Source: an uncultured Gemmatimonadota bacterium
GTDB lineage: Bacteria > Gemmatimonadota > Gemmatimonadetes > Gemmatimonadales > Gemmatimonadaceae
Assembly: GCA_903882745.1 (NCBI GenBank)
Contig: CAIRYG010000010.1
Location: 1-64,000, forward strand
DNA length: 64,000 nt
Reading direction: 5' to 3'
Made by a program: the position numbers and the translations under genes. The notes beneath the pieces are model-generated. The model ran no database searches. It was not told where the DNA came from and saw only the letters and a program-made list of their open reading frames with translations. The stretch's first letter is position 1, and each line of letters starts with the position of its first letter. Of the stretch, positions 2,555-61,280 are shown piece by piece.

Positions 2555-2581
2555 GAGGGATGTCCGTTGGGTAGGTTCGGG

Positions 2582-4012: not shown

Positions 4013-4088
4013 GAGTGGGCGTGGGGCGTGAAGGAAACTCGCACGGACTCCTGCAATAATGCGCTTAAGTACAGCCTTTCGTTGAGGG

Positions 4089-10147: not shown

Positions 10148-10155
10148 TCCTGTGC

Positions 10156-11166: not shown

Positions 11167-11280
11167 AGTCTGGAGTTTACATCGTGGGACGGGGGGCGTC
11201 ACTGGGCTATGCATTCCATCTACGCTGGCCGAGGGCTCCATGTTGCCCAGCGCGAGGTTCCCGGCGAACTTCCCTACACT

Positions 11281-11685
11281 ATGCCGACACTCCTCAAAAC
11301 CTACGCCGCCGCGATCGTCGCCTTCTGTATCCTCGACTTCACCTGGATCGGCTTCGTCGCCAAAGGGCTCTACAACGAGCAGATGGGGCACCTCCTCCGG
11401 CCCGACGTACAATGGGGCGCGGCGGTGCTTTTTTATCTGATTTACGTTGCCGCAATCGTCATCCTCTGCGTCCAGCCTGCCGTCGAGCGTCACTCGGCGC
11501 TCCGAGCGGTCACATTGGGGGCGGTATTCGGACTCGCGGCCTACGCCGCCTTTGACCTTACGAGTCTCGCATTACTGAAGGACTTCCCCGCCAAAATCGC
11601 CTACATCGACTTGGCCTGGGGCACCTGCCTGACCAGCGCCGTCAGCTACGCCGCGTACAAGGCGAGCACCACCTTCGTCGGATAA
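11281..11685 (+). CDS. DUF2177 family membrane protein
   Basis: 134 residues from the ATG at 11281 (MPTLLKTYAAAIVAFCILD). Four hydrophobic segments are visible, and the sequence from the first helix (LDFTWIGFVAKGLYNEQMG) fits the DUF2177 pattern of small bacterial inner-membrane proteins. The biochemical function of the family is not established. It ends 5 bases before the acylase gene, so the two are probably co-transcribed. Confidence 0.85.
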   Translation: MPTLLKTYAAAIVAFCILDFTWIGFVAKGLYNEQMGHLLRPDVQWGAAVLFYLIYVAAIVILCVQPAVERHSALRAVTLGAVFGLAAYAAFDLTSLALLKDFPAKIAYIDLAWGTCLTSAVSYAAYKASTTFVG

Positions 11686-11690
11686 CACGG

Positions 11691-13868: not shown

Positions 13869-13874
13869 CCTCGG

Positions 13875-44509: not shown

Positions 44510-45582
44510 GCCGTTGACGTCGGCAGATCCTCGCGGACCGTCCCCTCAACTTCCAAAATGAAGTCGGCCCCGAATGCCATCGATGGCGTGCGGTATCCAG
44601 GCTGCGCGCCACCCTCGAGCACTTTCTGCGCAGCGGCGACGGCTGTGATGGCGGTGAGGGTGTAGCCATCCGGAGCGCGCAGGCGCGATGCCACGCGAGT
44701 GCCGCTGTCGTCCCACGCCACGCCCCACAGTTGAGCCTCTCCACGAGCGCGCTGCGCATCGCTCGGCCCTGGCTTCCCGGCACGAATACGGCCGAGCATG
44801 AAGCGCTGCATTGGCGCGGTCTCGAGCAACCAGCCGATGTAGCGTGAGAGCATCATCCCGCGAATCGTGCCTGGCGAGGTGGCGGTGAAGACTTCGATGT
44901 TGGGGATCTTGGTGCTGTGCCAGGCGGTGGACACGTCGCCCCACGGGATCGTGACGGAGAGGCGCGGCTTGTCGCCATAGGCAATCTCACGCGTACGCCA
45001 AGCCGCAGGCACTCGCGTGATCTTACCGTTGCGACGTACCGCTCCGCCCTGCCCGATGTTCTGGACCATGGTGGTCGCCGTTCCGCGCGAGAGTCCAACC
45101 CCGCCGTTGAAGGCGAGGGTCAGCCAGGTCGCGCTCGGCAGCCGCCGCTTGAGATGCGCGGCGAGGCAGTCGCTCGGAACCACGTCAAAACCAACGCCGG
45201 GCATGAGCATGACGCCGGCGCGCTCCGCTTCTGCACTGCGCGCCGCCATTGTTTCAAAGACCGAGATCTCACCCGTGATGTCGAGGTAGTGCGCCCTGTT
45301 GCGCATGCAGGCGTCGGCCATCGCGCGCGCCGTGCTCGAGAATGGCCCGGCGCAGTGCAGCACCACGGTGCACCCTGCCATCGCGCTGTCGAGTGCCGCT
45401 GGGGTATCGAGTCCACAGGGACGCGCGAGGAGTCCGTGTTCTGCGGCGAGCGCGTTGACCTCGGCTGCGTTGCGCCCCGACAGTACGGGGCGCATTCCGC
45501 GACGTACCGCTTCTTTCACGATCAGTCGGCCGGTGTAGCCGTTAGCGCCGTAAATCAGCACCGGATCGTGAGCGGTTGTCAT
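44506..45582 (-). CDS. Saccharopine dehydrogenase-like NAD(P)-binding protein
   Basis: 358 residues. The N-terminal Rossmann motif is IYGANGYTGRLIVKEA, followed by LSGRN and VLHCAGPFSSTA, as in the saccharopine dehydrogenase NADP-binding family that includes trans-acting enoyl reductases. The rest of the chain fits that family (YLDITGEISVFE, GVGFDVVPSDCLAAHL). It overlaps both neighbours by 4 bases. In this operon it may act on an acyl or enoyl intermediate made by the carboxylase/AtuA genes, but this is inference. Confidence 0.82.
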   Translation of the reverse strand: MTTAHDPVLIYGANGYTGRLIVKEAVRRGMRPVLSGRNAAEVNALAAEHGLLARPCGLDTPAALDSAMAGCTVVLHCAGPFSSTARAMADACMRNRAHYLDITGEISVFETMAARSAEAERAGVMLMPGVGFDVVPSDCLAAHLKRRLPSATWLTLAFNGGVGLSRGTATTMVQNIGQGGAVRRNGKITRVPAAWRTREIAYGDKPRLSVTIPWGDVSTAWHSTKIPNIEVFTATSPGTIRGMMLSRYIGWLLETAPMQRFMLGRIRAGKPGPSDAQRARGEAQLWGVAWDDSGTRVASRLRAPDGYTLTAITAVAAAQKVLEGGAQPGYRTPSMAFGADFILEVEGTVREDLPTSTA

Positions 45583-45941
45583 ACGGCGGCGGTGTAGGCG
45601 GGGAGTGCGAGCGCCTGTGCTTCCGCGTCCGGCACGTCAATCACCATGCGGAGCATTGCGGTAGAGAAGACCTTGCCCTGCGCGTCCGTCTTGAGCGAGA
45701 GCGTGCCGCCACCGTCGAGCGCGCCATGCAACAGAAAGTTCAGCGCGCGGAGGTTCGGCAGTTCATAGCGCTGCACGCCACCGGTAATGACACCCGTGAA
45801 GTGTGTGACCGCCGCTGCTTCGGTGACGTATGTCACGAGCACGTCGTACCACTCCGGCTTGAGCGCAATGAGCCCGACGTTCGCGGTATCACCCTTGTCA
45901 CCGGATCGCGCGTGCGCGATGTCGAGGAGACGGACCTTCAT
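45579..45941 (-). CDS. AtuA-related small protein
   Basis: 120 residues. The N-terminal motif [18 protein letters not shown] is characteristic of the small domain that is either fused to or encoded beside AtuA (DUF1446) proteins. Here it is separate and follows atuA with a 4-base overlap. It is probably a subunit of an AtuA complex in acyclic terpene or branched acyl-CoA breakdown. Confidence 0.85.
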
Positions 45942-47311
45942 GACAGCACCTCCACGTGGGTGGTGACGACCGTCTTGTCGACAAGCGCCGGCCAGTAGGC
46001 GACAATCTCTTCGGTCTTCGGCCGACCCGCAGCGAAGCCGGTGACACTCGGCGGTCCATTGAGCACGAGCGGCACGATCTCTCGTGTGAACCGCTCGACC
46101 TTGGCCTTGTCGGCATCACGTACACCGATGCGGTACTGAATCTCGGGCGCATCTTTTCCCGCACCGACACCCGCGAGCGGGCCGTGCGTTGCGCTAGCGC
46201 CCACAAACTCGCTCAGCACCTGTTCGAACGTGAGCCCGAGTCGGTCGAGGCGCTCGCGGAGAATCCGGTCGGCCATCTGTGCTTTTTCGAGCGCGTCCGG
46301 CCAGGAGTAGACCAGCGAGCCCACGGCCTTGTAGCCACTCCGATAGGCAATGGACACTTTGAGTTTGTCCGTCGCTGCACTGCCCTTGATGCCATGCACC
46401 TTCACGCGATCGGTGCCACCGTCGGCGAGCTGGATGCTCGTGAAATCGGCAACAACGTCTGGCGTGATGTAGCTATGCGGATCACCCATCTCATAGACGA
46501 GCTGCTCCGTGACCGTCGGCACGGACACGCGCCCGCCCGTGTTGTCGTGCTTCGTGACAACAAAGGTGCCGTCGGGGGAGCACTCAACAATTGGGTAGCC
46601 GATATCGGCAAGGTTGGGAATGTTGCGCCAGTCGTGGAGGCAGTTGCCGCCCGAGCATTGTGCGCCGCACTCAATGATGTGCCCCGCGATGATGCCCGCG
46701 GCGAGTTTGTCCCAGTCGTTGGCGGCCCATCCGAACTCATAGCGCAATGGTGCCATGGTGAGCGCGGTGTCAGTTGAACGGCCGATGATGACGACATTCG
46801 CGCCACGGTTCAGCGCCTCGACAATCGGCTCACTGCCGATGTAGGCATTGGCCGCAATCACCCGATCGCGCACGAGCGACAGCGGCTCGCCCGTGTCCAT
46901 GTTGCGCAGCTCGTGTCCGTTGGCGAGCAGTTCGTCGATGCGCGGCAGGAGATTGTCGCCGGTAATCACGCCGATCTTCAGCTTGCCCGCGGCGCCGTGC
47001 TTGGCGGCCATCGCCTGCACCGCAGCCGCGCAGGCTTCTGGATTCACGCCGCCGGCATTCGCAATGACTTTGACGCCTTTGTTCACAACAGCGTCGAGCA
47101 CCGATTCCATGGCGCCAACGAAGTCGCGCGCGTAGCCCATGTTCGGGTCGCGTTCCTTCTGCTTCTGCAGAATGGACATCGTGACTTCGGCGAGATAATC
47201 GAGCATGAGGTAGTCCACCTGACCACCCTCGACCTGCCGACGCGGCGCTTCGAGCCAATCGCCCCAAAAGCCTTGGCCACCCGCGACGCGTACCACCGTC
47301 TTGCCACTCAT
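45938..47311 (-). CDS. AtuA family (DUF1446) protein
   Basis: 457 residues matching the AtuA/DUF1446 family along its length: [17 protein letters not shown] at the start, [23 protein letters not shown], and [13 protein letters not shown]. In Pseudomonas AtuA is needed for growth on citronellol/geraniol, but its reaction is not settled. It overlaps the carboxyltransferase gene by 1 base and the small AtuA-related gene by 4 bases. Confidence 0.88.
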
Positions 47312-48921
47312 TATGCGATCTCCGGACGTGCGGGAAGCACGAAGGGCCCAAGGTGCGGACCGGGATTCTGCAGGGCGCTGCGGAGGGCGATGGTCAGCAC
47401 CGTCCGTGTGTCCTCAGGGTAGACGAGCGCGTCAATAAATCCGCGCGCGCCCGCGTATTGGGCATCCAACTGATGTTCGTAATCGGCGCGCATCTCGGCT
47501 ACGGACGCTGCGACTTCGGGCGAAACGTCGACGCCAGCGGTCTTTGCTGCCGTGATGGTCGGACCGTGGACGGCGGTGACCGCGGCCTCGCCCTCCATGA
47601 CCGCCATACGACCGGTGGGCCAGGAGAAGATGAAGTCCGGATCGAAGCCCTGCCCCGCCATCGCATAGTAGCCCGCGCCGGAGGCGTGATTCACCGTCAG
47701 CACGATCTTTGGAACGATCGCCGTGGCCATGGCCTCAACAAAGCGAGCGCCAGCCCGAATGATCCCCGAGTGCTCGGCGTCAGCCCCGACCATGAAGCCG
47801 GAGACATCCTGCACAAAGAGAATCGGGATCCCCTGCCGCGAGCATTTGTCGATATAGAACGCCGCTTTCTCCGCGCTTTCGGTATAAATGATTCCGCCGA
47901 AGCGAGGACGTTCCCCTTCGCGCGGCTTGATGAGCCCGCGCTGGTTGGCGATGATCCCGACCGGCATCCCCGCAATCCGCGCATCGCCGCAAATCAGCTC
48001 CTTGGCGAGGTTGGGCTGGAACTCGTCGAGCGAGCCCTCGTCCAGAATGGCGCGGAGCACATTGTGCATGTCGTAGGACATGCGATGATCGGCGGGGAGC
48101 ACGTCATACAGGGTCTCGGCGGCCGCGCCGGGTTGGGCGTCGCTGAGTTCGGGGGGCTTCACCGGCTGCGGGAGCCGCGACACGAGATCGCGAATCTTGC
48201 GCAAGCATTCGGCATCGGTCTCCACCGCGTAGTGCGCCACACCACTGATCTCGGTGTGGGTGTTGGCGCCTCCCAATGTTTCCCCGTCGATCGTCTGCCC
48301 GGTGGCGCCCTTCACGAGGTTGGGGCCGCCGAGTCCCATGAAGCTGGTGCCCTTCACCATTAGGATGACGTCGGAGAGGGCTGGGAGGTACGCCCCGCCG
48401 GCCACGCACTGTCCCATCACCGCCGCGATCTGCGGGATGTGGAGGTAGCGTCGCATGAGCGAGTTGTAGTAGAAAATGCGCGCCGCACCATACTGCCCCG
48501 GGAAGACCCCGCCTTGGTACGGGAGATTCACCCCCGCACTGTCGACCAGGTAGAGGATCGGGATGCGGCAGCGCATGGCCAGCTCTTGGGCGCGCAGCAT
48601 CTTGGTGATCGTCTCGGGCCACCAGGAGCCCGCTTTGACCGTCGCATCATTGGCGACCATGACGCACTCGCGGCCGCTGACCGAGCCAATGCCCGTGATG
48701 ACCCCTGCGCCGGGCGCTTGCCCGTCGTACTGATCGTACGCGACCAGGAGGCCGATTTCGAGGAAGTGGGAATCGGCGTCGACGAGCTGGGTGACGCGCT
48801 CGCGAGCCGTGAGCTTGCCCTGCTTATGTTGTCGGGCCGCTTTATCGGCCCCGCCGCCGTCGCGCAGCGTTGCTTCGAGCGCGCGTGCGGCGGCGCTGAG
48901 GTCACGAAGTCGGGCGCTCAC
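47311..48921 (-). CDS. Acyl-CoA carboxylase carboxyltransferase (beta) subunit
   Basis: 536 residues with the two crotonase-like carboxyltransferase halves: [20 protein letters not shown] and [12 protein letters not shown] in the first, and [15 protein letters not shown] and [14 protein letters not shown] in the second. It is closest in style to methylcrotonyl- or geranyl-CoA carboxylase beta subunits ([22 protein letters not shown]). The biotin carboxylase/biotin carrier alpha subunit is not encoded in the window. It overlaps the B12-binding small subunit by 4 bases and AtuA by 1 base, so all act in one pathway by context. Confidence 0.92.
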
Positions 48922-49328
48922 ACGTCCTGCGGACGCTGTGCAAACCAGCGACGGATGTAGTCGATCAAATCCTGGGTCGACGTGCCAGGACCGAACAGTT
49001 CGCCGGCTCCCTGTGCACGGAGCGTCTCCATATCCTCTTTCGGGATAATGCCGCCGCCCGTGAGAAGAATGTCGCCCCGGCCCTGCTCGTCGAGCAGCGC
49101 TTTGACGCGCGGGAAGAGCGTCATGTGGGCACCGGAGAGGATCGACAGGCCCACGACGTCCACATCCTCTTGGACGGCCGCGCTCGCGATCATCTCGGGG
49201 GTCTGATGCAGACCCGTGTAAATCACTTCCATGCCGGCATCGCGGAGTGCGGCGGCAACAACTTTGGCCCCCCGGTCATGACCATCTAGACCGGGCTTGG
49301 CGACAAGGACACGAATGGGACGGGACAT
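48918..49328 (-). CDS. Cobalamin-binding acyl-CoA mutase small subunit
   Basis: 136 residues from the ATG at 49328 ([20 protein letters not shown]). The B12 motif DxHxxG is DGHDRG, with the His as lower axial cobalt ligand, followed by GLSILSGAH and the TGGGIIP segment that line the nucleotide tail. It is a stand-alone cobalamin domain, as in IcmB or archaeal-type mutases, and would pair with a separate large subunit such as the one at 56286-57980. It heads the AtuA/carboxylase operon. Confidence 0.92.
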
Positions 49329-49384
49329 ACTCGAAAAGTACTCGGCGCGTCCCGACTGCGGCAACTCATCAACGACGGAAAATT

Positions 49385-49401
49385 GAGCGATTTCGGCGCT
49401 C
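49385..49401 (-). terminator. Terminator of the methyltransferase gene
   Basis: GAGCG and CGCTC form a 5-bp stem followed on the minus strand by AATTTT. It lies 17 bases after the methyltransferase stop codon. Confidence 0.6.
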
Positions 49402-49418
49402 GTTTTAGAGTCCGTCGA

Positions 49419-50198
49419 TTAGTCCCGTCGTGCCACCAGCAACATTTCGCTCGACTCACGCGTCAGCGGGGCGTCCGTCCACCCGTCAAAGGCCTGCTCG
49501 ACCACCAGTCCCGCCGCGCGGCAGAGCTCGGCGAGTTGGCTCGCGGTATAGAGCCGAATCCGGTGCTCGCGCTCGAAGGTCCGCTTGCCCTTGATCGTGG
49601 TGCGCACGGTGATGAACCCGGTCAGCGGATCGAACTCACGTTCGTGCCCGATCATCGTCCCGTCGTCGGTGGTCCACCAGTCGCGATCCAGGAACTTGGC
49701 CATCACGCCGTCGCGGCTGCCGCCGTGCCAGATCAGGGTGCCGCCCGGCTTCAGTACGCGGGCAAAGCCCTCAATCACCTGCTGGTCGTCCTGGGGGTCG
49801 GCAAAGAAACCGAAGCTGGTAAAGAGATTGACGACCGCATCAAACTTTCCCGTCCATCGCGCGGGGAGGGTCCGCATGTCGCCCCGCGTGTAGCGCAGGG
49901 TGCGCCCCGTCCCGCGAGCCTTCGCCTTTGCGATGAGCGTGGCGGAGTAGTCGAGGCCGGTGACGTCGTGTCCCGCTTCGGCGAGCAAGTGCGCATGGCG
50001 CCCCTGGCCGCAGGGGACATCGAGGACACGGGATCCGTGCGGGAGCTCGAGCAACTCGAGGAGACGCGTGACCTGCGCGCGGTCGTCCTCGAGCGAAAAG
50101 AGCGGCTCGTATTCCAGCAGATAGCGCGTGTCGAAATACTGGGCCCACCACTCGGTGATGGACGGGCGAGCAGGCGGGCGGCGGCGGGAAGCAGTCAC
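49419..50198 (-). CDS. Class I SAM-dependent methyltransferase
   Basis: 259 residues from the GTG at 50198; a TTG at 50246 is also possible. Motif I is VLDVPCGQGRHA, followed by GLDYSATLI (acidic residue that binds ribose) and VNLFTSFGFF. The N-terminal ITEWWAQYFDTRYLLEYEPL is typical of small-molecule methyltransferases of the ubiE/bioC-like type. The substrate is unknown. It is divergent from the cytochrome bc operon and does not obviously belong to it. Confidence 0.85.
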   Translation of the reverse strand: MTASRRRPPARPSITEWWAQYFDTRYLLEYEPLFSLEDDRAQVTRLLELLELPHGSRVLDVPCGQGRHAHLLAEAGHDVTGLDYSATLIAKAKARGTGRTLRYTRGDMRTLPARWTGKFDAVVNLFTSFGFFADPQDDQQVIEGFARVLKPGGTLIWHGGSRDGVMAKFLDRDWWTTDDGTMIGHEREFDPLTGFITVRTTIKGKRTFEREHRIRLYTASQLAELCRAAGLVVEQAFDGWTDAPLTRESSEMLLVARRD

Positions 50199-50266
50199 CC
50201 GTGAAAGGTGTCGGCGCGCACGCGCCGCGTCCACTGCGTGGGGCAATTATCGGTCCGACTTTATGA

Positions 50267-50306
50267 GGGATTTCCCCCAGCATTTGTCAGGGGAAATACC
50301 CTTTTG
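50267..50306 (+). promoter_or_regulatory. Terminator-like hairpin in the bc operon leader
   Basis: GGGATTTCCCC pairs with GGGGAAAT-A-CCC (11 bp with one bulge) and is followed by CTTTTGT, the form of a plus-strand intrinsic terminator. No plus-strand gene lies upstream, so it would sit either before the promoter or in the leader as an attenuator of the cytochrome operon. Confidence 0.4.
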
Positions 50307-50340
50307 TCGCCCCCCGCCCTGCGCTTGCGTGCACCCACAA

Positions 50341-50364
50341 GGAGTAACAGCCCCTCGTTACTCC
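50341..50364. promoter_or_regulatory. Inverted repeat before the Rieske gene
   Basis: GGAGTAAC at 50341-50348 and GTTACTCC at 50357-50364 are perfect 8-bp complements separated by 8 bases, about 80 bases before the Rieske start. It could be an operator for a dimeric regulator or a leader hairpin. Confidence 0.45.
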
Positions 50365-50445
50365 CCGTGAGCAGGTGCCGAAATGGGCGACATGGCCCAG
50401 TCAGACAGGGCTCCTGCGTCGAGACCACCACTGTGGAGGAGTACT

Positions 50446-51000
50446 TTGAGCGACAGCACGCATTCGGAATCGCAGTCCGCGCCGAGCGAGGCCCTTACCG
50501 CGCGGCGTCGTTTCCTGCGATTGGTCAGCGGAGTATCCGCCGCGCTCGGCGCGGTGCTTGTCGGGGTTCCCCTGACACGCAGCATTGCGACCCCGGTCCT
50601 CGCAAAGCCCCCCAAGGACAACTGGATTAAGGTCGCCGACGACATCGCGCTGCTCGACATCGGCGTCCCGATTCGCCGTGACTTCACGATCACCATGCAA
50701 GACGCTTGGGTCGAGAGTCGCGCGATGAACGGCGTATGGCTGTACACAGAGGACGGCGAGAAGTTCAAGGCGTACAACGCGCACTGCACGCACCTGGGCT
50801 GCGGATACGTCTACGATCCAACCGAAAAGATCTTCTTCTGCCCGTGTCACCGCGGCCAGTTCGAAATTAAAACCGGAAAGGTGCTCGGGGGCCCACCGCC
50901 CCGTCGACTCGACGAACTCGAGGTCGAAGTCCGCGACAGTGCCGTGTATGTGAAGTACAAAGACTTCCGGCTCGGCGTCGAAGCACGGATTGAGGCCTAA
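50446..51000 (+). CDS. Rieske iron-sulfur protein of a bc-type complex
   Basis: 184 residues from a TTG at 50446, chosen because GGAGGAG lies 4 bases upstream; ATG at 50383 or 50395 would add residues with no known role. The N-terminus ARRRFLRLVSG followed by a hydrophobic helix is a Tat-type anchor, as in other Rieske proteins. The 2Fe-2S ligands are in CTHLGC (114-119) and CPCH (132-135). It passes electrons from quinol to the cytochrome c domain. It is the first gene of the operon and lies 3 bases before the cytochrome b gene. Confidence 0.95.
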   Translation: MSDSTHSESQSAPSEALTARRRFLRLVSGVSAALGAVLVGVPLTRSIATPVLAKPPKDNWIKVADDIALLDIGVPIRRDFTITMQDAWVESRAMNGVWLYTEDGEKFKAYNAHCTHLGCGYVYDPTEKIFFCPCHRGQFEIKTGKVLGGPPPRRLDELEVEVRDSAVYVKYKDFRLGVEARIEA

Positions 51001-51003
51001 TCC

Positions 51004-52497
51004 ATGTCTATCTATAAATGGCTCAATGAGCGCGTCGACCTCGACGGCATGTACACGGGGCTGCTCGACCGCAAAGTGCCTAGCGGCCTCAGCTGGGCGC
51101 ATACCCTCGGCAGTGCGACACTCGCGGTATTTGTGGTGCAGGCGCTGACCGGCATCGCGCTCGCGATGTACTACGCGCCATCACCCGACCATGCGTATGA
51201 CAGCGTCCGATACATCCAAACGGCGGTCATCAGCGGCCCCTTAGTTCGCGGGATCCATCACTGGGGTGCGTCGGCAATGGTCGTGCTCGTGGTGGCGCAC
51301 ATGATTCGCGTCTTCACCATGGGGGCCTATAAGTACCCCCGCGAGGCGAACTGGATGCTGGGCGTCGTGCTCTTCATCCTGACCATGGCGTTCGGCTTCA
51401 CGGGCTATTTGCTGCCCTGGGATCAGAAGGCGTACTGGGCAACGCAGGTCGGCACGAACATCGCGGGGACCACACCCGTGATTGGCGACATGCTAGTGAA
51501 GCTGCTCCGCGGCGGTAGCCAACTCGGCGCCGGCACGCTGACCCGTTTCTATGCGATGCACGTGCTGCTCTTTCCCATGCTGATCGCCGGCGTGATCGGG
51601 TTGCACATGGTGCTGGTGATTCGCCAGGGGATCGCACCAAAGCCCAAGCTGCTCGAAGACGGCTCACCGCTCACGACATCGGATGCTCAGTACCCCGCCT
51701 ACTACCAGGCGCAGTACAAAGCAGCGAAGCGTGGCGACCAGCGGTTCTGGCCCGACGTGATTGCCAAGGATGCGGCGGTCGCGGTGCTCACCATTCTTGT
51801 GCTCGTGTTGCTGGCGAAAACCTTTGGCGCTGGCCTCGAAGCACCGGCGGATCCGAGCGACTCATCGTACAAACCGCTGCCGGAGTGGTACTTCCTCCCG
51901 TTCTTCCAGCTGCTCAAACTGGTGCCAGGGTCGCTCGAGAGTGTCGTCGCTGTCGGGATTCCAGGTGCCGGCATCCTGGCACTCCTGTTCCTGCCCTTCT
52001 ACGACCGGAAGAGTACACGCTCGTTCCGTCATCGGCCGTGGGCGATGGCGATTCTTGGGACCCTCATGGTGAGCTGCGCGCTCCTCATCGGCGCTGCGTA
52101 TCGCGATATCGGTCCCGTGGTGGAACCCGACACCGGACGCCCATTGACCTCGGCGGAACGTGCGGGCCGAGCCCTCTTCAAGGGACAGGGATGCAACTCC
52201 TGCCACCAGGTCGGCGCGAACAAGCCGACCGGAAAAGCTGGCGATTTGCCAGATGCACCTGACCTCACAGAGGTCGGTCTGAGACACACGGGTGTCTGGA
52301 TGCACTCGTTTATGGAAGATCCGTTGCGCTTCCATAAGAACTCCAAGATGCCGGCGTTTGGCCCTCCGATTCTGTCGCACCAGGAAATCGAAGAGTTGAG
52401 CCGCTACATGAGCTCACTGCGTGGCAAGAATGGCGACGCCAAGCAGCCACAGTTCGTTGACACCTTCCCAGAAACTCCCAAACACAAGGAGCCATAA
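51004..52497 (+). CDS. Cytochrome b fused to a cytochrome c domain
   Basis: 497 residues. The b part has eight or so hydrophobic helices, heme ligands at about H85/H186 and H99/H201 (spacings 14 and 15, as in cytochrome b6), and the quinol-site motif PEWY at 292-295. The subunit-IV-like half is in the same chain. After the last helix a cytochrome c domain begins, with CNSCH at 397-401 and a probable Met ligand in KMPAFG (about 449). The protein oxidises quinol in the inner membrane and passes electrons to the periplasm. Its stop shares a base with the next ATG. Confidence 0.95.
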   Translation: MSIYKWLNERVDLDGMYTGLLDRKVPSGLSWAHTLGSATLAVFVVQALTGIALAMYYAPSPDHAYDSVRYIQTAVISGPLVRGIHHWGASAMVVLVVAHMIRVFTMGAYKYPREANWMLGVVLFILTMAFGFTGYLLPWDQKAYWATQVGTNIAGTTPVIGDMLVKLLRGGSQLGAGTLTRFYAMHVLLFPMLIAGVIGLHMVLVIRQGIAPKPKLLEDGSPLTTSDAQYPAYYQAQYKAAKRGDQRFWPDVIAKDAAVAVLTILVLVLLAKTFGAGLEAPADPSDSSYKPLPEWYFLPFFQLLKLVPGSLESVVAVGIPGAGILALLFLPFYDRKSTRSFRHRPWAMAILGTLMVSCALLIGAAYRDIGPVVEPDTGRPLTSAERAGRALFKGQGCNSCHQVGANKPTGKAGDLPDAPDLTEVGLRHTGVWMHSFMEDPLRFHKNSKMPAFGPPILSHQEIEELSRYMSSLRGKNGDAKQPQFVDTFPETPKHKEP

Positions 52498-52835
52498 TGC
52501 GCCCCCGTTCGATGATGCTCTTCGCAGTATTCGCCGCGGCCGCCACCGGCAGCCGGCTCGGTGCCCAGGCCGCGGATGCCAAAGCCAACTACGACGAGAA
52601 CTGCCGCAAGTGTCACGGCGTGCGCGGGACCCCGCCGAAGACCATGAAGGAGAAGTTTCCGAAGATCGCGACCTTCGACGCGAAGTTCTTGGAAACCCAC
52701 TCCGTGGACTCCATGGTGAAGGTCCTCACGAAGGGCAAGAACGACGACATGAAGTCGTTCAAGGAGAAGATGTCCCCCGCGGAGCTCAAGGCCGTGGCCG
52801 AGTACGTACATGAGCTCCAGAAGGCGAAGCCGTAG
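52497..52835 (+). CDS. Small monoheme cytochrome c
   Basis: 112 residues with a signal peptide (MRPRSMMLFAVFAAAATGSR). One heme motif, CRKCH at 36-40, is followed by a cytochrome c fold with a candidate Met ligand in DDMKSF. It starts at the stop codon of the cytochrome b-c gene (TAATG), so translation is coupled. The context suggests a periplasmic carrier between the bc complex and the decaheme cytochrome downstream. Confidence 0.93.
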   Translation: MRPRSMMLFAVFAAAATGSRLGAQAADAKANYDENCRKCHGVRGTPPKTMKEKFPKIATFDAKFLETHSVDSMVKVLTKGKNDDMKSFKEKMSPAELKAVAEYVHELQKAKP

Positions 52836-52901
52836 TTCCCCGGACTCCTACTCCCAGACTCGCAGTGCCGCCCCGGAGATGGGGCGGCCAGAGGAAGCGA
52901 A

Positions 52902-53834
52902 ATGACTGATACCCGATTCCTATTCCGACACGCCGCGTATGGCCTAGGCTTGAGCCTGGCGGTTCTGGGGTTCGTGCCCAGCGCGCTATCGGCACAACAG
53001 AAGGCCGCGTCGGCGTATGCCGGCTCGGCCTCTTGTCTTGATTGCCACAAGAAGATGGCGGCGCCGTTTCTCGAGTCCGCCAAGGGCCAGCAACTCATGG
53101 GGCGCCCACGTACCGAGCACGAGAAGAAAGGGTGCGAGTCCTGCCACGGCCCAAGCAAGCAGCACGCGAATTCCGGCGGAGAAGAGCGCGGCGATATGAT
53201 CGTATACAGCCGCAAGTCTCCGACACCCGTGACCGAGCGCAACGCGATCTGCCTGCAGTGTCACCAGAAGACTGCCCGCACGTTATGGAAGGGGAGCGCC
53301 CACGAAGCACGCAACGTGGCATGCACCGACTGCCATGTGGTGATGCATCACGAGTCCGAGCGCGGCGCGCTCAAGAAGTCGTCCGTCGCCGCGACCTGCG
53401 GATCGTGTCACCAGCAAAAGGTTGCCGCGATTCAGAAGAACTCGCACATGCCGTTGGGCGAGCAAAAGATGGAATGCACCAGCTGCCATAATCCGCACGG
53501 CTCGCCGAATGAAAAGCTCTTGATCAAGTCGTCGGTCAGCGAAACGTGCTACCAGTGTCACCAGGAGAAGCGTGGCCCGTTCCTCTGGCAGCACATCCCA
53601 GTCGCGGAGAGCTGCGCCAACTGCCACGACTCCCACGGCAGCAACAAGGAGAAGATGCTCAAGCTCTCGCGTCCGCGTCTCTGCCAGCAGTGCCACCCGA
53701 CTGGGCATGGTGGTCCCGTTGCGCGAGCCACCGATGCCGCAGCTGTCCGCTTCACCTACAACAAAAGTTGCTCCAACTGCCACGTCAACATTCACGGATC
53801 GAACCACACCGCCGGCGCCTTCTTCACTCGCTGA
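52902..53834 (+). CDS. Decaheme cytochrome c, MtrA/DmsE type
   Basis: 310 residues with a signal peptide ending near ALSAQQ. Exactly ten CxxCH motifs occur, beginning at residues 45, 78, 117, 141, 166, 192, 216, 238, 261 and 290. Length, number and spacing match MtrA, DmsE and PioA-core decaheme cytochromes that thread through an outer-membrane barrel as a heme wire. The next gene encodes such a barrel, 24 bases downstream. It lies 66 bases after the monoheme cytochrome gene with no terminator between, so it is part of the bc operon. Confidence 0.94.
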   Translation: MTDTRFLFRHAAYGLGLSLAVLGFVPSALSAQQKAASAYAGSASCLDCHKKMAAPFLESAKGQQLMGRPRTEHEKKGCESCHGPSKQHANSGGEERGDMIVYSRKSPTPVTERNAICLQCHQKTARTLWKGSAHEARNVACTDCHVVMHHESERGALKKSSVAATCGSCHQQKVAAIQKNSHMPLGEQKMECTSCHNPHGSPNEKLLIKSSVSETCYQCHQEKRGPFLWQHIPVAESCANCHDSHGSNKEKMLKLSRPRLCQQCHPTGHGGPVARATDAAAVRFTYNKSCSNCHVNIHGSNHTAGAFFTR

Positions 53835-53858
53835 CGCCATTCGCGCAAGGACATCCTA

Positions 53859-56216
53859 ATGAAGCGCTACCAGCTGAGTCTTACCCTGTGCGCCGTGGCG
53901 TGTGGGATTGCTTGGGGGATCCCCACGATCGGATTCGCCCAGGCCACACCGCCTCAGACACCGGCCCATGCACCACCCGCACAGGCCGGCGGGATCACCA
54001 CCGCTGCCGAAGTGGGCATTCGAAACTTCTTGAAAGAGCCCTCCGCACTCGACAAAGGAAAATTCGAGCAGTACACCTCCACCCAGGCGGGCCCCGTTCT
54101 CGAGCGCCTGAAGATTGGCTACGTACCCAAGGACAGTTTCGGCATTTATCAGTTCACCTATCGCCGCCCGAGCGACCGGGACCAGAGTGCGTGGCTCCAG
54201 GCGAAGCGCCCCGGCGCGTATGATTTTCAGCTCCACTGGGAACGGTTGCAGCATACCTTCTCGACCGATGCGCACTCGCCGGGAGTGGAAAACAGCCCCA
54301 TGGGCTTCAACACGCTACCAACCCCGCGTCCGGACTCCACGGCGTGGCGCAATGCTCCGTACATCGGCGCCATCCGCACTGTTTGGGAGCCGATGAAAAT
54401 GTCGTTGGGGCTCACGCCGTCAGTAGATGCCGACTTCCTGGCCGAGTATCTGCGGACGACGAAGCTCGGCGGGATCCCGAGCTCGATGAGCTTCAATGGA
54501 TCGAGTGGCCCGCAGCGTGAGTTCGTCTCGCCAATCAACCAGACGACAAGCGAGTTCCGCATTGCGCATTCCTTCACGTCGCGGGAGTTGACGCACCCGG
54601 AAGGATACTCGCCGATCAAGAACTACCAGTTTACGGTCGCGTACGAGTACTCGCGCTTCCAGAACGCGCTCACCTCGGTCATGGTTGATAACCCGATGCA
54701 GGCCGTGAACTCGAGCACACTGGGCGCCGCAACCTCGCGACTGTCGCTCGCACCAAACAATTCGGCGCATTCCGCGTCGTTTGTCGGCGCGGTCACACTG
54801 CCCCTCCGCACGCGTTTCACCGGATCGGTGGCGACGAGCTGGCAGTATCAGAACGACGCATTCCTGCCGCAAACGAACAACGATTCACTCAAGACGCTCG
54901 CCACCTACAGCAACGTCGCAACGCTGGCACGCCCGAGCCTCGACGGTAAGGTTGTCACGTCGACCCTGAACTTCGCGCTGTCGAGTCACCCATTCGCAGG
55001 ACTGACGCTCGCCGCGCGCTACAGGAGCTACGACTACAAGAACGAGACGGCAATGTTCCACATCGAAGCGATGGTCGTGAGCGACCGCTCCATTGCGCTG
55101 GCCGACTCGCTGTACACAGAAGCCAGTCCGTTCTCCAAGCAGAACTCCGACATCAGTGCGACCTACGACATCGCACAAGGCCTCGCGATGCAGTTGGGGA
55201 TGGGCACGGAGAACTGGACGCGCGAACTCGACGTGCGCGGCGTTGGTTCCACAAAGGAACAGACGCCACGCGTCAGCTTTGACTACCGGGGCTTCGACTG
55301 GGGTACGCTCCACGCGAGCTACTCGAAAGGCGAGCGCCGCTCCGACAGGTATATCGAGTCAGGCACAGAACTCATCGCCTTCCGCCGTTTTGACACCGCG
55401 GATCGAAGCCGTGAACAGCTCAACTTGATGGCGTCGATCACCCCGATCGACCAAGTCACCCTCGGACTGAGCTATACCACCGGGTCGGATCTTTTCCCGA
55501 ACTCGCTGTACGGCACGCAGAGCGACAAGAGTGTCACAACCGGCGTTGACCTTGACTGGACGCCGACCAAGCGGCTGTCGATCAGCCTCGGCTACTCGGA
55601 CGAAGCGGTCGATAACATCCTGAACATGCGCTATCGGACCGGTACTGCCACGTCGGCGACCTACGACAACTACACCTATCGCTGGACGAACACCAACACG
55701 GACCGCACCACCGTCGTGTCGGCGGGGCTGATTGCCGCGGTCATTCCGGACCGTGTTGACTTCTCCGCCACGGTCTCACGGATCGACGGACGGTTCTGGG
55801 TGCTCAACAGCAACCCCAACTCCCCCGCCGGAGGAACGATTGCGCAGAATCTCGCGGCAGTTGCACAAGACTGGCCGGAGGTCACGCAGTCACTCACGCC
55901 GGTCACGATGGCGCTACGGCTGCGCCTGAGCGACAACTGGGGAGTCACCCTCAAGTACCAGGCTGAGAACTACACGCAGAACGACTTCCGAACCTTAGCG
56001 CCGATCTTCACGTCGACCACGCTCGCGGGCCTGACCCCGAACGTGAACTTCACGGGGAATCTCCCGGGTAACGTCGGTGCCACAACGGGCACGAATACCG
56101 GGCAGTATCACTTCCTCGGCAACAACTACAACCCGTACCAAGCGAACTGGCTGACCTTCACGATCAGTTGGCACCCGTCAGCGCTTCCGCTCGACGTCGG
56201 ACGTCCGGCGTTCTGA
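53859..56216 (+). CDS. MtrB/PioB-type outer-membrane beta-barrel
   Basis: 785 residues. A signal peptide (about 1-28) is followed by a Pro/Ala-rich linker and a region similar to MtrB/PioB openings (GKFEQYTSTQAGPVL, then WERLQHTFSTDAHSPG). The remainder is a long series of alternating strands, ending in Phe after LPLDVGRPAF, as expected for a BamA-assembled barrel. Family members sheath a decaheme cytochrome and make it span the outer membrane. No CxxC pair is seen in the mature N-terminus, unlike Shewanella MtrB. No outer-surface MtrC-type cytochrome follows; a terminator comes next. Confidence 0.88.
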   Translation: MKRYQLSLTLCAVACGIAWGIPTIGFAQATPPQTPAHAPPAQAGGITTAAEVGIRNFLKEPSALDKGKFEQYTSTQAGPVLERLKIGYVPKDSFGIYQFTYRRPSDRDQSAWLQAKRPGAYDFQLHWERLQHTFSTDAHSPGVENSPMGFNTLPTPRPDSTAWRNAPYIGAIRTVWEPMKMSLGLTPSVDADFLAEYLRTTKLGGIPSSMSFNGSSGPQREFVSPINQTTSEFRIAHSFTSRELTHPEGYSPIKNYQFTVAYEYSRFQNALTSVMVDNPMQAVNSSTLGAATSRLSLAPNNSAHSASFVGAVTLPLRTRFTGSVATSWQYQNDAFLPQTNNDSLKTLATYSNVATLARPSLDGKVVTSTLNFALSSHPFAGLTLAARYRSYDYKNETAMFHIEAMVVSDRSIALADSLYTEASPFSKQNSDISATYDIAQGLAMQLGMGTENWTRELDVRGVGSTKEQTPRVSFDYRGFDWGTLHASYSKGERRSDRYIESGTELIAFRRFDTADRSREQLNLMASITPIDQVTLGLSYTTGSDLFPNSLYGTQSDKSVTTGVDLDWTPTKRLSISLGYSDEAVDNILNMRYRTGTATSATYDNYTYRWTNTNTDRTTVVSAGLIAAVIPDRVDFSATVSRIDGRFWVLNSNPNSPAGGTIAQNLAAVAQDWPEVTQSLTPVTMALRLRLSDNWGVTLKYQAENYTQNDFRTLAPIFTSTTLAGLTPNVNFTGNLPGNVGATTGTNTGQYHFLGNNYNPYQANWLTFTISWHPSALPLDVGRPAF

Positions 56217-56228
56217 AGGCACAACGAA

Positions 56229-56266
56229 AAAGGGCGGTGGGGCCGAAAGGCTCCACCGCCCTTTTG
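56229..56266. terminator. Bidirectional terminator of cytochrome and mutase operons
   Basis: A stem of about 16 bp (AAAGGGCGGTGG... with ...CCACCGCCCTTT, one G-T) closes on a GAAA tetraloop, with A-rich and T-rich flanks. It lies between the convergent barrel and mutase genes. Confidence 0.92.
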
Positions 56267-56285
56267 CATCGTTCCACACGAGCGA

Positions 56286-57980
56286 CTAGAAGAACACCGG
56301 CTCGCGGTAGGCGCCAAAGACATCCTCGAGCGCCGCACGAATCTCAAAGAGCGTGCAATAGGCGCGCGCGCACTCCAGGATGTAGGGCACGACGTTCTCC
56401 TTCCCACGCGCGGCTTCACGCAGCGCATTAATGCGGCTCGTGCACAGCGCATTGTCGCGCGACGCACGAAGCTGCGCCAACTTGGCGGCTTGGTCGCGCG
56501 CCGCCTGCTCGTCGATCTTGAGCAGTGGGATGCTCAACGCATCTTCTTCGCTCACGAACTCATTGACGCCGACAATCACTCGGCGATGCTGCTCGATCTC
56601 CCACTGCTGGCGCGCGGCCGCCTCGGCGATCTTCTTCTGGAACCACCCCTGCTCCAGGCCCGCAACGACCCCGCCCTGCTCTTGGATCTGCTCGAACAGC
56701 GCTTCGGCCTCCTGTTCCATCTGGTCCGTGAGCGCCTCGACGTAGTACGAACCACCGAGGGGATCAATGACATTGGGGACGCCGGTCTCGTACGCCAAAA
56801 CCTGCTGCGTACGGAGCGCAACCTGCACGGCGTGCTCGGTCGGAAGCGCGAGCGTCTCATCCATTGAGTTCGTGTGCAACGACTGCGTACCGCCCAGTGC
56901 CGCCGCCATCGCCTGGTAGGCGACGCGCACGATGTTGTTCATCGGCTGCTGTGCGGTGAGCGTCACGCCTGCGGTCTGCGAGTGGAACCGCATGACCAAC
57001 GAACGCGGGTCCTTTGCGCCGTACCGCTCCTTCATGTGACGGGCCCAGATCCGACGCGCCGCACGAAGCTTCGCGATTTCCTCGAAGAAGTCGTTGTGGA
57101 CGTCCCAGAAGAAGGAGAGCCGCGGGGCGAAGTCGTCGACATTCAATCCGCGCGCGATCCCACGCTCGACGTACGTAAAGCCATCCGCCAAGGTGAAGGC
57201 CAGCTCCTGCGCGGCGGTCGCGCCAGCTTCACGAATGTGGTAGCCGGAAATCGAGATGGTGTTCCACTGCGGCGCGTTCGTCGCGCCCCACTCGAACATG
57301 TCGACAATCAGCCGCAGGGCCGGCTCGATCGGAAAGCACCAGGCGTGCTGCGCCATGTACTCTTTGAGAATGTCGTTCTGGACCGTTCCCCGGAGCTTCT
57401 CGGCGCTCACGCCCTGCTTTTCCGCTGCCGCGATGTAGAAGCACCAGAGAATGATGGCGGGACCGTTGATCGTCATCGATGTGGAGACGTCGCCGAGGGG
57501 AATCCCCTCGAAGAGCGTTTCCATATCGGCGAGCGAACTAATGGCGACGCCGCACTTACCGACCTCGCCCTCGCTACGGACATGGTCCGAGTCGTAGCCC
57601 ATGAGCGTGGGGAAGTCGAAGGCGACGGAGAGACCGGTCGTCCCTTCTTGCAGCAGGAACTTGTAGCGCTGGTTCGTTTCGACGGCCGAGCCGAAACCTG
57701 CGAACTGGCGCATGGTCCAGAGCTTGCCCCGGTAGCCTGTCGGGTGGATGCCGCGTGTGTAGGGAAACTGTCCCGGAACTTCAAAGGCCGTCCCGCCAGA
57801 CCCTTCGAGATCGAGCGCCGTGTACAGTGGCGCCAGCTCGTGACCCGAGTTGGTGAAGTTCAGGTCGCGCACCTTGCCCTTCTCGTAGCGCGCGCGCCAG
57901 CCGGAGACTTCCGATCGAAGGGAGTCCAGTTCCTGCTGCATCGCCGCGATTGTCGCGTCCACGTCGTGACTGCCGGTCAT
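56286..57980 (-). CDS. Acyl-CoA mutase large subunit, isobutyryl-CoA mutase-like
   Basis: 564 residues from the ATG at 57980 ([14 protein letters not shown]). It is the TIM-barrel subunit of B12-dependent acyl-CoA mutases without the cobalamin domain. The substrate-site residues differ from methylmalonyl-CoA mutase: RQFAGF has Phe93 where that enzyme has Tyr89, and YMAQHAW has Gln211 where it has Arg207. The following SGYH gives His248, keeping the 37-residue spacing to the Arg/Gln position. Phe plus Gln is the pattern described for isobutyryl-CoA mutase. Its start overlaps meaB by 4 bases. The partner B12 subunit is probably at 48918-49328. Confidence 0.9.
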
Positions 57981-59074
57981 TGTATCACTCCACTGAGGAG
58001 GGAGCCGCTGCGTGCAAGCAACGCATCGGCCACCGCATATGGGGTTGTCGTCCCCTGTTCGAGCCCATCGATTTGCGCGTCCAGCCACGCTGTGGTCCCT
58101 GCATCGGTCCACAGCCGTCGCCGCACCCGCTGTTCCACGACATCAACCACGCGCTCCCGCAACCGCGTTCGCCGCCGGTGCTGGAGTGTGCCACTGCCTT
58201 CAAGATACGCAAAATGGCGGTCCATGGCGTCGAGGAGCTCAGCCACGCCCTCGCCGGTCACGCCAACGGACCGGAGCACCGGCGGCACCCAGCGCGCCGC
58301 ATCCGGCTGCTGGGCCGCGGCCCGGGCGGCCTTCGCCGGGTTGCCGATTGTTCTCAGGTCGACGCCATGATGCGCCGGCGTGTCCTTGAGCGTGAGCCCA
58401 CCGCGGAGTCCGAGCATGAGTTCGAGGTCGTTCCGCAGGCGATCCGCGCCTGGACGATCCGCCTTGTTCACGCAGAAGAGATCCGCGATCTCCATGAGCC
58501 CCGCTTTCAGCGTTTGAATCGAATCGCCCGACTCGGGCACGAGCACAACCGCGCTCGTATCAACCGTTCGAGCGATATCGAGTTCACTTTGCCCCACGCC
58601 GACGGTCTCCACGAGGATTCGATCAATACCGAAGGCATCCATCACGTCGCACACTTCGCGCGTCGCTCCGGCGAGCCCACCTAACGACCCGCGCGTGGCC
58701 ATGGAGCGAATAAACACACCGGGGTCGAGCGCCACTGCCTCCATGCGCACGCGGTCGCCAAGCAGTGCGCCTCCGGTAAAGGGGCTCGTGGGATCCACGG
58801 CCACAATGCCAACCGTAAGCCCCTGCTGGCGAAGCGCAGCCGCCAACAACGTCGTCAGGGTGCTCTTCCCTGCCCCTGGCGGCCCGGTCAGGCCGATCCG
58901 CCGCGCGCGCCCAATCCGTGTATGCATGGCGGCGAGCAGCAGGTCGGACCCCACGCGCTGATTCTCCACAATGCTCAGCGCCCGCGCCAAGGCCGCCTTA
59001 CGGCCAGCGGAAAAGTCGGCCGCAAGCGTGCGGAGCCCCTCGCTCGCCTCGGGACCAAGAACAAGAGCACTCAC
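57977..59074 (-). CDS. meaB: MeaB/ArgK-type G-protein chaperone of B12 mutases
   Basis: 365 residues. The P-loop is GPPGAGKST, with [11 protein letters not shown] as the switch/Walker B region and [11 protein letters not shown] as the guanine-specificity motif (NKAD). MeaB proteins gate cofactor delivery and protect acyl-CoA mutases from inactivation. The overlap with the mutase gene (ATGA) fits that role. It overlaps the upstream CNNM/CBS gene as well. Confidence 0.95.
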
Positions 59075-60033
59075 GAGAGCTGCCCCTGTGGTTCGTCGTG
59101 TTCGTCGCTAATATCGCCCACCAGTTCCTCCACCAAGTCCTCGAGGGTCACCAGTCCGACCGTGGCCCCCGTCGCATCCTGAATAATCGCTAAATGAACG
59201 CGCTCCCGCAGCATGCGCCGAAGAATTTCCTGAGCGGGCGTGTCGGCGCTCCACTGCGACAAGCGACGTGGCGCGTCCAGCGGGGTATCGGGATGTGCAA
59301 GCACGTCAAACGAGTGCACGAGTCCAACGCAATGATCTAGGTCGCCAACGTACACCGGCACACGGCTGTATTTCGACTGGGCCATCAACCGAATGACCCC
59401 TTCCGCCGGGAGGGCCCGATCGACCGCGACGATCTCCGACCGCGGAGTCATGACATCGCGGGCCTTGAGGAGCCCAAAGGCCACCACACCGGTGATGATG
59501 GCACTCTCCGAGGCCTCGCCCACGCCTTCCATTTCGCCTTCTCGCAGGAGCTCATCCAGATGCTCCCTCGCCTCTTCCGATTCGCTTCCCAGAGGTTCGG
59601 CGACTCGCCCAGCGACAGCACCGGCTATCGCGAACACAGGGCGGCATACCACTTCCAAGACGTTCAATATCGGCAGGAACACCGGCAAGAGCTGTGGCGC
59701 CCACCGTCGCGCCGCCGCTCTCGGCACGAGCTGACCAACCACAAGCAGCGTGAGGGCACCCCACGCCAGATGCGAAACCATCGCCCCTTGCTGCTCGCGC
59801 ATGCCGAGCATCGCCCCGAGCGCAAAGACAAGCGCCGCGATACCAGTCCCGGCGGCCATCAGGAGGCGCTTCGGCCGCTCGACAACCAGCGCCATACCGT
59901 CCTCGGCGCCAGCGAGCCTGCGCTCCGCCCAGTGGCGCAACCAAATTCGGCTCGCCGACCGCACCGCGGTCGCCCCCGCCGTCAGGCAGGCAACAGCAAG
60001 CGCCAACACCGTGGTCCAGGTCAGGGACGTCAT
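59071..60033 (-). CDS. CNNM/CBS-domain membrane protein (short form)
   Basis: 320 residues. Three or four N-terminal hydrophobic helices form a CNNM-like domain, followed by a CBS pair (ARDVMTPRSEIVAV and LEDLVEELVGDISDEHDE). The CorC/HlyC C-terminal domain found in most relatives is missing; the chain ends just after the second CBS motif. Such proteins are linked to Mg2+ or Co2+ transport. It is a paralogue of the next gene upstream and overlaps both neighbours by 4 bases. Confidence 0.85.
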   Translation of the reverse strand: MTSLTWTTVLALAVACLTAGATAVRSASRIWLRHWAERRLAGAEDGMALVVERPKRLLMAAGTGIAALVFALGAMLGMREQQGAMVSHLAWGALTLLVVGQLVPRAAARRWAPQLLPVFLPILNVLEVVCRPVFAIAGAVAGRVAEPLGSESEEAREHLDELLREGEMEGVGEASESAIITGVVAFGLLKARDVMTPRSEIVAVDRALPAEGVIRLMAQSKYSRVPVYVGDLDHCVGLVHSFDVLAHPDTPLDAPRRLSQWSADTPAQEILRRMLRERVHLAIIQDATGATVGLVTLEDLVEELVGDISDEHDEPQGQLS

Positions 60034-61280
60034 GAGTCTCCACCGCCCGTGACCGGCACAATCCGCTCGAAGTACACCCGCTCAACACGCCGCCGAACGA
60101 CGCGCTCTACTACCACGCGGAACTCCCCGACCGTCATCCGCTCCCCATTACGAGGCACGCGCCCGAGCAGCTCGGTCACAAGCCCACCAACGGTCTGGAC
60201 ATCCTCCCGATGAAAGTCCGCGCCAACAATCTCGCTCAGCTCGTCGAGACTCACCCCCGCGGCCACCCACCACCGGTCTTCCCCTTCCTGCTCGACATCA
60301 GGCTCCTCAATGTCGTGCTCGTCGCGGATCTCCCCTACAATAAGCTCAAGCGCGTCTTCCATCGTCACGAGCCCCGCCGTGCCGCCATACTCATCAACCA
60401 CAATGGCAATGTGTCGATGCGTCGAGCGAAACTCGCGCAACTGCTCGTCAACGGATTTTGTGCCTGGAATAAAGACCGGAGGCCGCACCAGCGCGGTCCA
60501 CCCACCCTCGGGCTCAACATCGTCCACAATCGACGGAAGCAAATCCTTGGCGTACAGCACGCCGACGATCTCATCAATCGTTCCGTCGTAAACGGGCAGT
60601 CTCGCATGCCGCGCGCTCCGCACCTTGTCGACCACCTCCGACCAGGAGGTCTCGCGCTCGATCCCAACGATATCCACGCGCGGCACCATAATCGCTTGCA
60701 CCACGGTGTCTCCGAGCGAGAACACCCCATGCAGCAACACAGAGGCCGGACTGTCGGGCTCTGCCTCAGCCTCGGCGGCAACGACCTCGCGGAACTGTTC
60801 GAGGTGCTCTTCGCGCTCCTCAGCGTCTGGAACACGGATGGGCAGCAACCGCAGTAAGGCCGCATCGAAGCGGGATCCGAAGAACACCACCGGCGCAAAA
60901 ATCCGCTCGATCCCGTGAATCCACTCCACACAGCGCGCTACGCCCAGCACACCGGCGGAATCACCAGCAGTACGCGCGACGATTTCCGTTACCGCGATGA
61001 CGACAATGCCAATCGCAACCGCAACGGCGGTAAGCTCCGACGCAGGAACAGCTGCGGCACGAAGTGCAACGGCAACCGCTGCGCCGGCAAGCAGCTGTCC
61101 GACGATCCGCCCGAATGCGAGTGCGCGGTGCACCGCCTCGCGCCGCGCGAGGAGGTCGGCGACGCGAGGTGATGACGGAGGCTCGTCGTCCTCAAGCGCG
61201 AGAAGGGCGCCGTCTGCGTACGCACAGAGGGCAGCCAACGACATTGCGAGCAGCGCGCAACAGACCGCAAGCAGCGTCAT
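60030..61280 (-). CDS. CNNM/CBS/CorC-HlyC membrane protein (hemolysin family)
   Basis: 416 residues from the ATG at 61280, which overlaps the ybeY stop. Hydrophobic helices (LLAVCCALLAMSLAALCAYA and later ones) form the CNNM domain. A CBS pair follows (VVQAIMVPRVDIVGIE, MEDALELIVGEIRDEHD), then a CorC/HlyC domain with VAAGVSLDELSEIVG and TVGGLVTELLGRVP. Members are probable Mg2+/Co2+ exporters or transport regulators. Position after ybeY matches the common phoH-ybeY-corC order. Confidence 0.9.
   Translation of the reverse strand: MTLLAVCCALLAMSLAALCAYADGALLALEDDEPPSSPRVADLLARREAVHRALAFGRIVGQLLAGAAVAVALRAAAVPASELTAVAVAIGIVVIAVTEIVARTAGDSAGVLGVARCVEWIHGIERIFAPVVFFGSRFDAALLRLLPIRVPDAEEREEHLEQFREVVAAEAEAEPDSPASVLLHGVFSLGDTVVQAIMVPRVDIVGIERETSWSEVVDKVRSARHARLPVYDGTIDEIVGVLYAKDLLPSIVDDVEPEGGWTALVRPPVFIPGTKSVDEQLREFRSTHRHIAIVVDEYGGTAGLVTMEDALELIVGEIRDEHDIEEPDVEQEGEDRWWVAAGVSLDELSEIVGADFHREDVQTVGGLVTELLGRVPRNGERMTVGEFRVVVERVVRRRVERVYFERIVPVTGGGDS

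Follow-up and report, generated by a model that had tools for sequence, protein, structure and literature searches.

A predicted menaquinone-type Rieske/cytochrome b-c complex encoded in one putative operon with an MtrAB-type conduit: a proposed module for extracellular electron transfer in Gemmatimonadota

Five adjacent genes of an uncultured Gemmatimonadota bacterium, which encode a Rieske protein, a cytochrome b-c fusion, a monoheme cytochrome c, a decaheme cytochrome of MtrA type and an outer-membrane barrel of MtrB type, probably constitute one portable module for extracellular electron transfer between menaquinone and the outside of the cell. They were found in a window of 64,000 nucleotides (the whole stretch of DNA analysed here, from contig CAIRYG010000010.1). 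What we observed are the content and order of these genes, the conservation of this order, the gain and loss of the genes as a block, the fold of MtrB, and the exchange of MtrAB for Cyc2-like partners in related genomes.

All five ORFs are intact, are located on the plus strand within positions 50446-56216 of the window, and are separated by gaps of 3, -1, 66, and 24 bases (Table 1). This organization, together with a single terminator following the last gene, had been proposed in a preliminary description of the window and was confirmed by the ORFs, Pfam and NCBIfam matches, and folding. The Rieske gene is assigned to start at a TTG (50446) with GGAGG upstream, and an alternative ATG start at 50383 is possible. 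The monoheme cytochrome c, of CBB3 type by its family match (PF13442), is likely a periplasmic carrier. The terminator region downstream of mtrB (56215-56275, -38.9 kcal/mol) forms a long stem between convergent genes. A further hairpin, in the gap between cytC and mtrA, sits just before the mtrA ribosome site, and hairpins are present in the same gap of relatives; judging by this position and recurrence, it could influence the relative expression of the bc and conduit halves or uncouple them. A scan of the region for consensus promoters revealed no site.

Table 1. Coordinates of the module and its features in the window
Feature	Position	Strand	Basis or remarks
Whole module	50238..56285	.	Block absent in its entirety from G315, of the same genus (blastn, junction alignment)
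Rieske [2Fe-2S] protein	50446..51000	+	PF00355, E 1.2e-9; RRRFLRL Tat-like motif
Cytochrome b-c fusion	51004..52497	+	PF00033, 1.1e-53; PF00032, 2.3e-13; PF00034, 6.9e-8
Monoheme cytochrome c, small, secreted	52497..52835	+	PF13442, 2.1e-11; one CxxCH, signal-like N-terminus
GC-rich hairpin without T tract	52866..52887	+	Strand folding; cytC-mtrA gap
MtrA/DmsE/PioA-type decaheme cytochrome, 10 CxxCH	52902..53834	+	TIGR03508, 2.3e-74
MtrB/PioB-type outer-membrane barrel	53859..56216	+	PF11854, 3.2e-73; AlphaFold2 model vs. PDB
Bidirectional intrinsic terminator	56228..56267	.	Fold z -8.1 (+), -7.4 (-)

The b part of the cytochrome b-c protein corresponds to cytochrome b6 plus subunit IV, and its nearest solved chains are those of cytochrome b6. 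Histidines 85, 99, 186, and 201 are the heme-b ligands, with the b6-type spacing of 14 and 15, the PEWY motif is at position 293, and the heme motif of the c domain (CNSCH) is at position 397. The Rieske protein, the four heme-b histidines, and PEWY assign the complex to the bc type, but not to cytochrome b6f proper, as b6, subunit IV, and c are fused in one protein and the alignment places Val at the position of b6f Cys35, so that the extra heme c of b6f is not expected. In the cluster motif of the Rieske protein (CTHLGC...CPCHRGQF), the Ser and Tyr hydrogen-bond donors are both missing. Wherever the survey of all loci located the motif in Gemmatimonadota members of this family, it read CPCH-x-G-x-F. 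In the yeast Rieske protein, Ser raises the potential by ~130 mV and Tyr by ~65 mV, as cited in PMC12954380, where one protein departing from this trend is also reported. With both residues absent, the complex is predicted to be of low potential and menaquinone type; the quinones of Gemmatimonadota isolates are MK-8 and MK-9 (PMC9426454).

The conduit half consists of a ten-heme cytochrome and an adjacent barrel, as in the MtrAB, PioAB, and MtoAB conduits. The cytochrome scores 250 bits against TIGR03508 (cut-off 192), a model named DmsE that extends to MtrA types as well, and matches the solved MtrA chain 6r2q_A with an E value of 7.5e-61; its single-chain structure model is poor (pLDDT 66). 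The barrel scores 248 bits against PF11854 (cut-off 23) and 180.5 bits against TIGR03509, which is below the cut-off of 240, and a sequence search of the PDB gave no match for it. Its AlphaFold2 model (pLDDT 81) is most similar in the PDB to MtrB (6r2q_B, E 3e-35, TM 0.89 by target), the next-best matches being TonB-dependent receptors with TM near 0.35. The modelling of the barrel around the decaheme protein had been proposed as a check of the assignment; with the two proteins modelled as single chains, the part of it that stands is that MtrB alone adopts the MtrB fold. No surface decaheme cytochrome of the MtrC or OmcA type is encoded in the operon, as the preliminary description held, and MtrA is the sole PF09699 protein of the genome.

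A search for the five-gene order in other Gemmatimonadota, which had been suggested earlier, was performed in a sample of 395 genomes of the phylum, taken by species and mostly represented by draft assemblies, 36 of which contain PF11854 matches. The tight order Rieske-cytochrome b-c-(monoheme c)-MtrA-MtrB recurs in 12 sampled genomes of family f1 (genera g1, g3, g5, and g6), f2, and f4. Four of these belong to the genus of the window (G000, G062, G082, and G168), five to other genera (G010, G061, and G380 of g3, G190 of g5, and G024 of g6), and three to other families (G012 and G273 of f2, and G083 of f4). The monoheme cytochrome c gene was resolved in 10 of the 12; in G024 and G380 there is a gap of suitable size, in which ORF picking did not resolve it. 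In G315, a member of the same genus (L225), the sequences corresponding to window positions 45500-50237 (93.9% alignment identity) and 56286-60500 (91.5%) are separated by 5 bp only. Thus, the five genes and the terminator are missing there as one piece, leaving a clean empty site, and neither cytochrome b nor MtrB was found in this genome. Near-complete members of the genus that lack any cytochrome b do exist. Since the order recurs across genera and the whole block is absent from G315, the arrangement of the operon is not a matter of chance.

A methylmalonyl-CoA mutase/carboxyltransferase/MeaB cluster (window positions 45938-60033) is split by the operon in the genome of the window and is uninterrupted in several other members of the genus. 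At this cluster, MtrAB is present in two genomes of genus g10 (G114 and G201), and different genes are found in G027 (L226 7286-14241); it may therefore be an insertion hot spot.

The cytochrome b-c fusions form a sharply bounded family, the members of which score above 515 bits, as compared to at most 229 bits for every other cytochrome b examined. The family is represented in 32 of the 395 genomes, and in 27 of these a conduit is encoded near the cytochrome b-c gene, namely, MtrAB in 14 (including G016, with a different type of MtrAB, and G238, where it lies ~9 kb away) and a Cyc2-like cytochrome-porin in 13. In the remaining five, the gene is at a contig end (2), has multiheme genes close to it on short or cut contigs (2), or has no such neighbour (1). 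Fisher tests of the association with cytochrome b-c, which ignore shared ancestry, gave p values of 3e-10 for MtrB and 1e-13 for the Cyc2-like proteins. On the tree of cytochrome b-c, the partner label changed at least four times. While the MtrA of the window groups with those of G062 and G082 at 100/100, the same grouping is rejected for cytochrome b-c (p-AU 0.0009), which indicates that the bc and conduit halves have had different histories. In G273, the bc genes are paired with an MtrA of a different clade.

The assignment of the second kind of partner as Cyc2-like cytochrome-porins is a putative one, based on motif and association. The features described for Cyc2 include AxPxFAR[Q/K][T/Y] before CxxCH, PxL after it, and a fused porin (PMC8406198). 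The motif is nearly exact in the proteins of L109 and L110 (IPSFSRQTGLACSxCH) and exact in one protein of L213 (IPAFARKY), while most of the others read IPAWARKYNMNCSGCH, a variant with W for F. In the L213 locus (522-13934, genus g13), two Cyc2-like genes adjoin genes of 8-, 18-, and 16-heme cytochromes. Taken together, it appears likely that the complexes with the cytochrome b-c fusion represent a menaquinone-type bc family specialised for extracellular electron transfer, in which a fixed inner half has been repeatedly joined to conduits of different kinds (MtrAB of more than one type, Cyc2-like) and which is acquired or lost in the form of one cassette.

The halves also occur apart. Locus L106 contains the bc trio with no adjoining conduit, and L064 and L069 (g10) contain MtrAB of the window's clade with no adjacent bc genes. 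At L069 (6063-12400), mtrA and mtrB are followed by genes of a tetraheme cytochrome, a 4Fe-4S protein, and an NrfD-type protein, which resemble NetBCD; as no bc genes are present there, an exchange may also occur on the quinone side. Other Rieske/cytochrome b genes of the phylum adjoin genes of multiheme cytochromes with 8 to 21 hemes (L218, L220, L221, L222, and L224).

Among the matches listed from outside the phylum, two Acidobacteriota MAGs contain clusters of bc and conduit genes unlike that of the window. The row in Granulicella UBA5172 (L193 1605-8951) comprises genes of a monoheme c, a Rieske protein, cytochrome b, a nine-heme cytochrome, MtrA, and MtrB, and that in Solibacter (L145 9929-20623) comprises genes of MtrA, MtrB, seven-heme and nine-heme cytochromes, and a pyridine-nucleotide/4Fe-4S protein, followed by those of a Rieske protein and cytochrome b. 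A third case, L126, assigned to 'Candidatus Sulfotelmatobacter' (Acidobacteriota), was rejected as an example of horizontal spread, since its contig is of 4.2 kb and its DNA is 88.7% identical to that of the Gemmatimonadota genome G061, which makes mis-binning probable.

The genome of the window (3.06 Mb, 14 contigs) encodes one PF11854 protein and one PF00033 cytochrome b, both from the operon. It also contains, in one cluster, genes of an alternative complex III (ACIII) with an NrfD-type subunit, ActD (PF11821, 4e-43), and a pentaheme protein, and two strong COX1 matches; the bc complex is thus additional to a general complex III. No quinone-side protein of the CymA, CbcL, or ImcH type is encoded in the operon, and the NapC/NirT-type family PF03264 is absent from the whole genome, in agreement with the earlier statement that CymA is lacking. 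In view of the presence of ACIII and oxidases, and of the lack of a CymA-type protein or another cytochrome b, the bc complex looks dedicated to the conduit. The dedicated route between quinone and the cell exterior that had been postulated is therefore well supported by genomics (gene order, the empty site in G315, ACIII, no CymA, the MtrB fold, and the pairing with Cyc2-like proteins), while its direction and activity, as well as the co-transcription of the five genes, have the status of proposals. A Cyc2-like protein was not found in this genome, nor was carbon fixation of the RuBisCO type. The PF00016 match (L208 1474-2748) scores below every NCBIfam cut-off and was classified as a RuBisCO-like protein.

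From these observations, we infer how the module would be assembled, how electrons would pass through it, how it would react with quinone, and in which direction. MtrA, placed inside MtrB, would conduct electrons across the outer membrane, the monoheme cytochrome c would carry them across the periplasm, and the Rieske/cytochrome b-c complex would exchange them with menaquinone at the inner membrane. The path would thus lead from the outside by MtrA in MtrB, the monoheme c, the c domain/Rieske protein, and cytochrome b to menaquinone, and the module would function beside ACIII and not instead of it. In inward use, MtrA and the cytochrome c would receive electrons from a donor outside the cell, for example Fe(II) or reduced humics; some of these would reach the oxidases, and others would be driven by way of the bc complex to menaquinone. 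Among the readings that accept the module, inward flow is slightly favoured. It is suggested by the Cyc2-like partners, by the lack of MtrC, as in MtoAB and PioAB, and by the role of bc1 in Fe(II)-oxidising Zetaproteobacteria, where bc1 rather than ACIII has been linked to reverse electron flow (PMC7029218). The lack of RuBisCO-type carbon fixation weakens this lithotrophic reading.

The same lack, along with the energy that could be conserved by a Q cycle, suggests outward use, and it is possible, with a distinctly lower probability, that the module operates outward only. Menaquinol would then be oxidised by the bc complex in a Q cycle, and under oxygen shortage the electrons would leave by way of the cytochrome c and MtrAB, with Fe(III), Mn(IV), or humics as acceptors. 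A Rieske protein without both potential-raising residues would fit menaquinol oxidation, given the effect sizes in PMC12954380, and a possible export of electrons by heterotrophs that possess porin-cytochrome clusters is argued for in PMC13264449. However, Cyc2 has been shown to oxidise Fe(II) (PMC8406198), and in relatives this bc trio is combined with Cyc2-like proteins. The outward transfer would, moreover, be uphill unless the MtrA of the window is unusual. This is because hemes of MtrA-type cytochromes usually have a lower potential than the Rieske centre.

Two other explanations have to be weighed against a module of either direction. That the bc trio is an ordinary respiratory complex and MtrAB an unrelated neighbour, linked to it by accident, would agree with the occurrence of the parts in separation (L106 on the one hand, L064 and L069 on the other), but we consider it improbable: ACIII and oxidases are present in the genome, near-complete members of the genus live without any cytochrome b, the five genes are present or absent together as a block, and a conduit is near the bc genes in 27 of 32 genomes, most of the others stopping at contig ends. 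The name of the decaheme family model, DmsE, might in turn point to an extracellular terminal reductase, of the DmsEFAB kind, as the partner of MtrAB in place of a mineral or Fe(II). This seems about as improbable, as the operon ends in a terminator and is flanked by genes of methylmalonyl-CoA metabolism, with no molybdoenzyme gene beside it, and relatives use Cyc2-like proteins instead; the model itself includes MtrA types as well.

The proposed module between menaquinone and the outside shares certain features with known systems. Like it, MtoAB of Sideroxydans and PioAB of Rhodopseudomonas combine a decaheme MtrA-type cytochrome with an MtrB/PioB barrel and lack MtrC, and Mto includes a monoheme carrier, MtoD, comparable to the monoheme c of the window. 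Their quinone side, however, is CymA or MtoC, or they use the HiPIP carrier PioC, whereas the operon of the window encodes a Rieske/cytochrome b-c complex. The preliminary statement that known systems depend on CymA or a separate bc1 complex was incomplete, as CbcL, ImcH, and NetBCD have been described (PMC6295460, PMC8805035), in addition to the ext cluster and clusters with petB/petC; Baker 2022 names NetBCD and one MtrCAB of Gemmatimonadetes (PMC8805035). In the ext cluster of Geobacter (extHIJKLMNOPQS), the genes of a Rieske protein (ExtO) and cytochrome b (ExtP) likewise accompany those of an outer-membrane protein and multiheme cytochromes, but the porin ExtI is different and smaller, the cytochromes have 4, 5, 10, and 12 hemes, cytochrome b (23 kDa) is not fused to c, and the phenotype of the ExtI mutant concerns selenite and tellurite reduction (PMC5877670). 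The porin of the window has the MtrB fold, and no ExtKL-like gene is present in the operon.

Another arrangement is that of porin-cytochrome clusters in karst MAGs (PMC13264449, June 2026), in which a small decaheme cytochrome is encoded beside a porin of 25-36 strands and bc1 cytochrome b and Fe-S genes. These petB/petC clusters are probably the same as or similar to that of the window. They are mentioned there briefly, for a few clusters in four MAGs, without treatment of lineages, of an exchange of partners, of a fusion, or of the properties of the Rieske protein. In PCC4, a porin and periplasmic multiheme cytochromes are similarly associated with an inner-membrane protein proposed to reach quinone and likely to bind two b hemes, but this five-helix protein is no Rieske/cytochrome b complex (He et al. 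2017, PMC5566968). In the Cyc2 pathway of Acidithiobacillus and Zetaproteobacteria, an outer-membrane conduit, a periplasmic c, and bc1 form a functional chain as they may in the window, but the rus (cyc2) and pet operons of Acidithiobacillus are separate (PMC10654088); in the Gemmatimonadota relatives, bc and Cyc2-like genes occur together, and MtrAB takes the place of the latter in the window. In view of the ext cluster, the clusters of PMC13264449, and the Acidobacteriota loci L193 and L145, the linkage of bc and conduit genes is not unheard of. The family of fused cytochromes b-c, its cassette behaviour, and the exchange between MtrAB and Cyc2-like partners are, as far as the literature was searched, undescribed.

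Among the steps of extracellular electron transfer, that on the quinone side is the least settled. Unlike CymA, a bc complex with a genetic link to a conduit would make it possible to conserve or spend proton-motive force at this step, and the swaps between MtrAB and Cyc2-like proteins on one bc core are natural experiments on its direction. In the literature searched, iron or electrode metabolism of Gemmatimonadota is little described. The module may help to account for the restriction of bc complexes to a minority of these bacteria, of the genomes of which only 23% contain petB (PMC9426454). As far as can be judged from genomes, the same inner half equipped with a different outer wire in relatives suggests a modular electron exchange of Gemmatimonadota with their surroundings.
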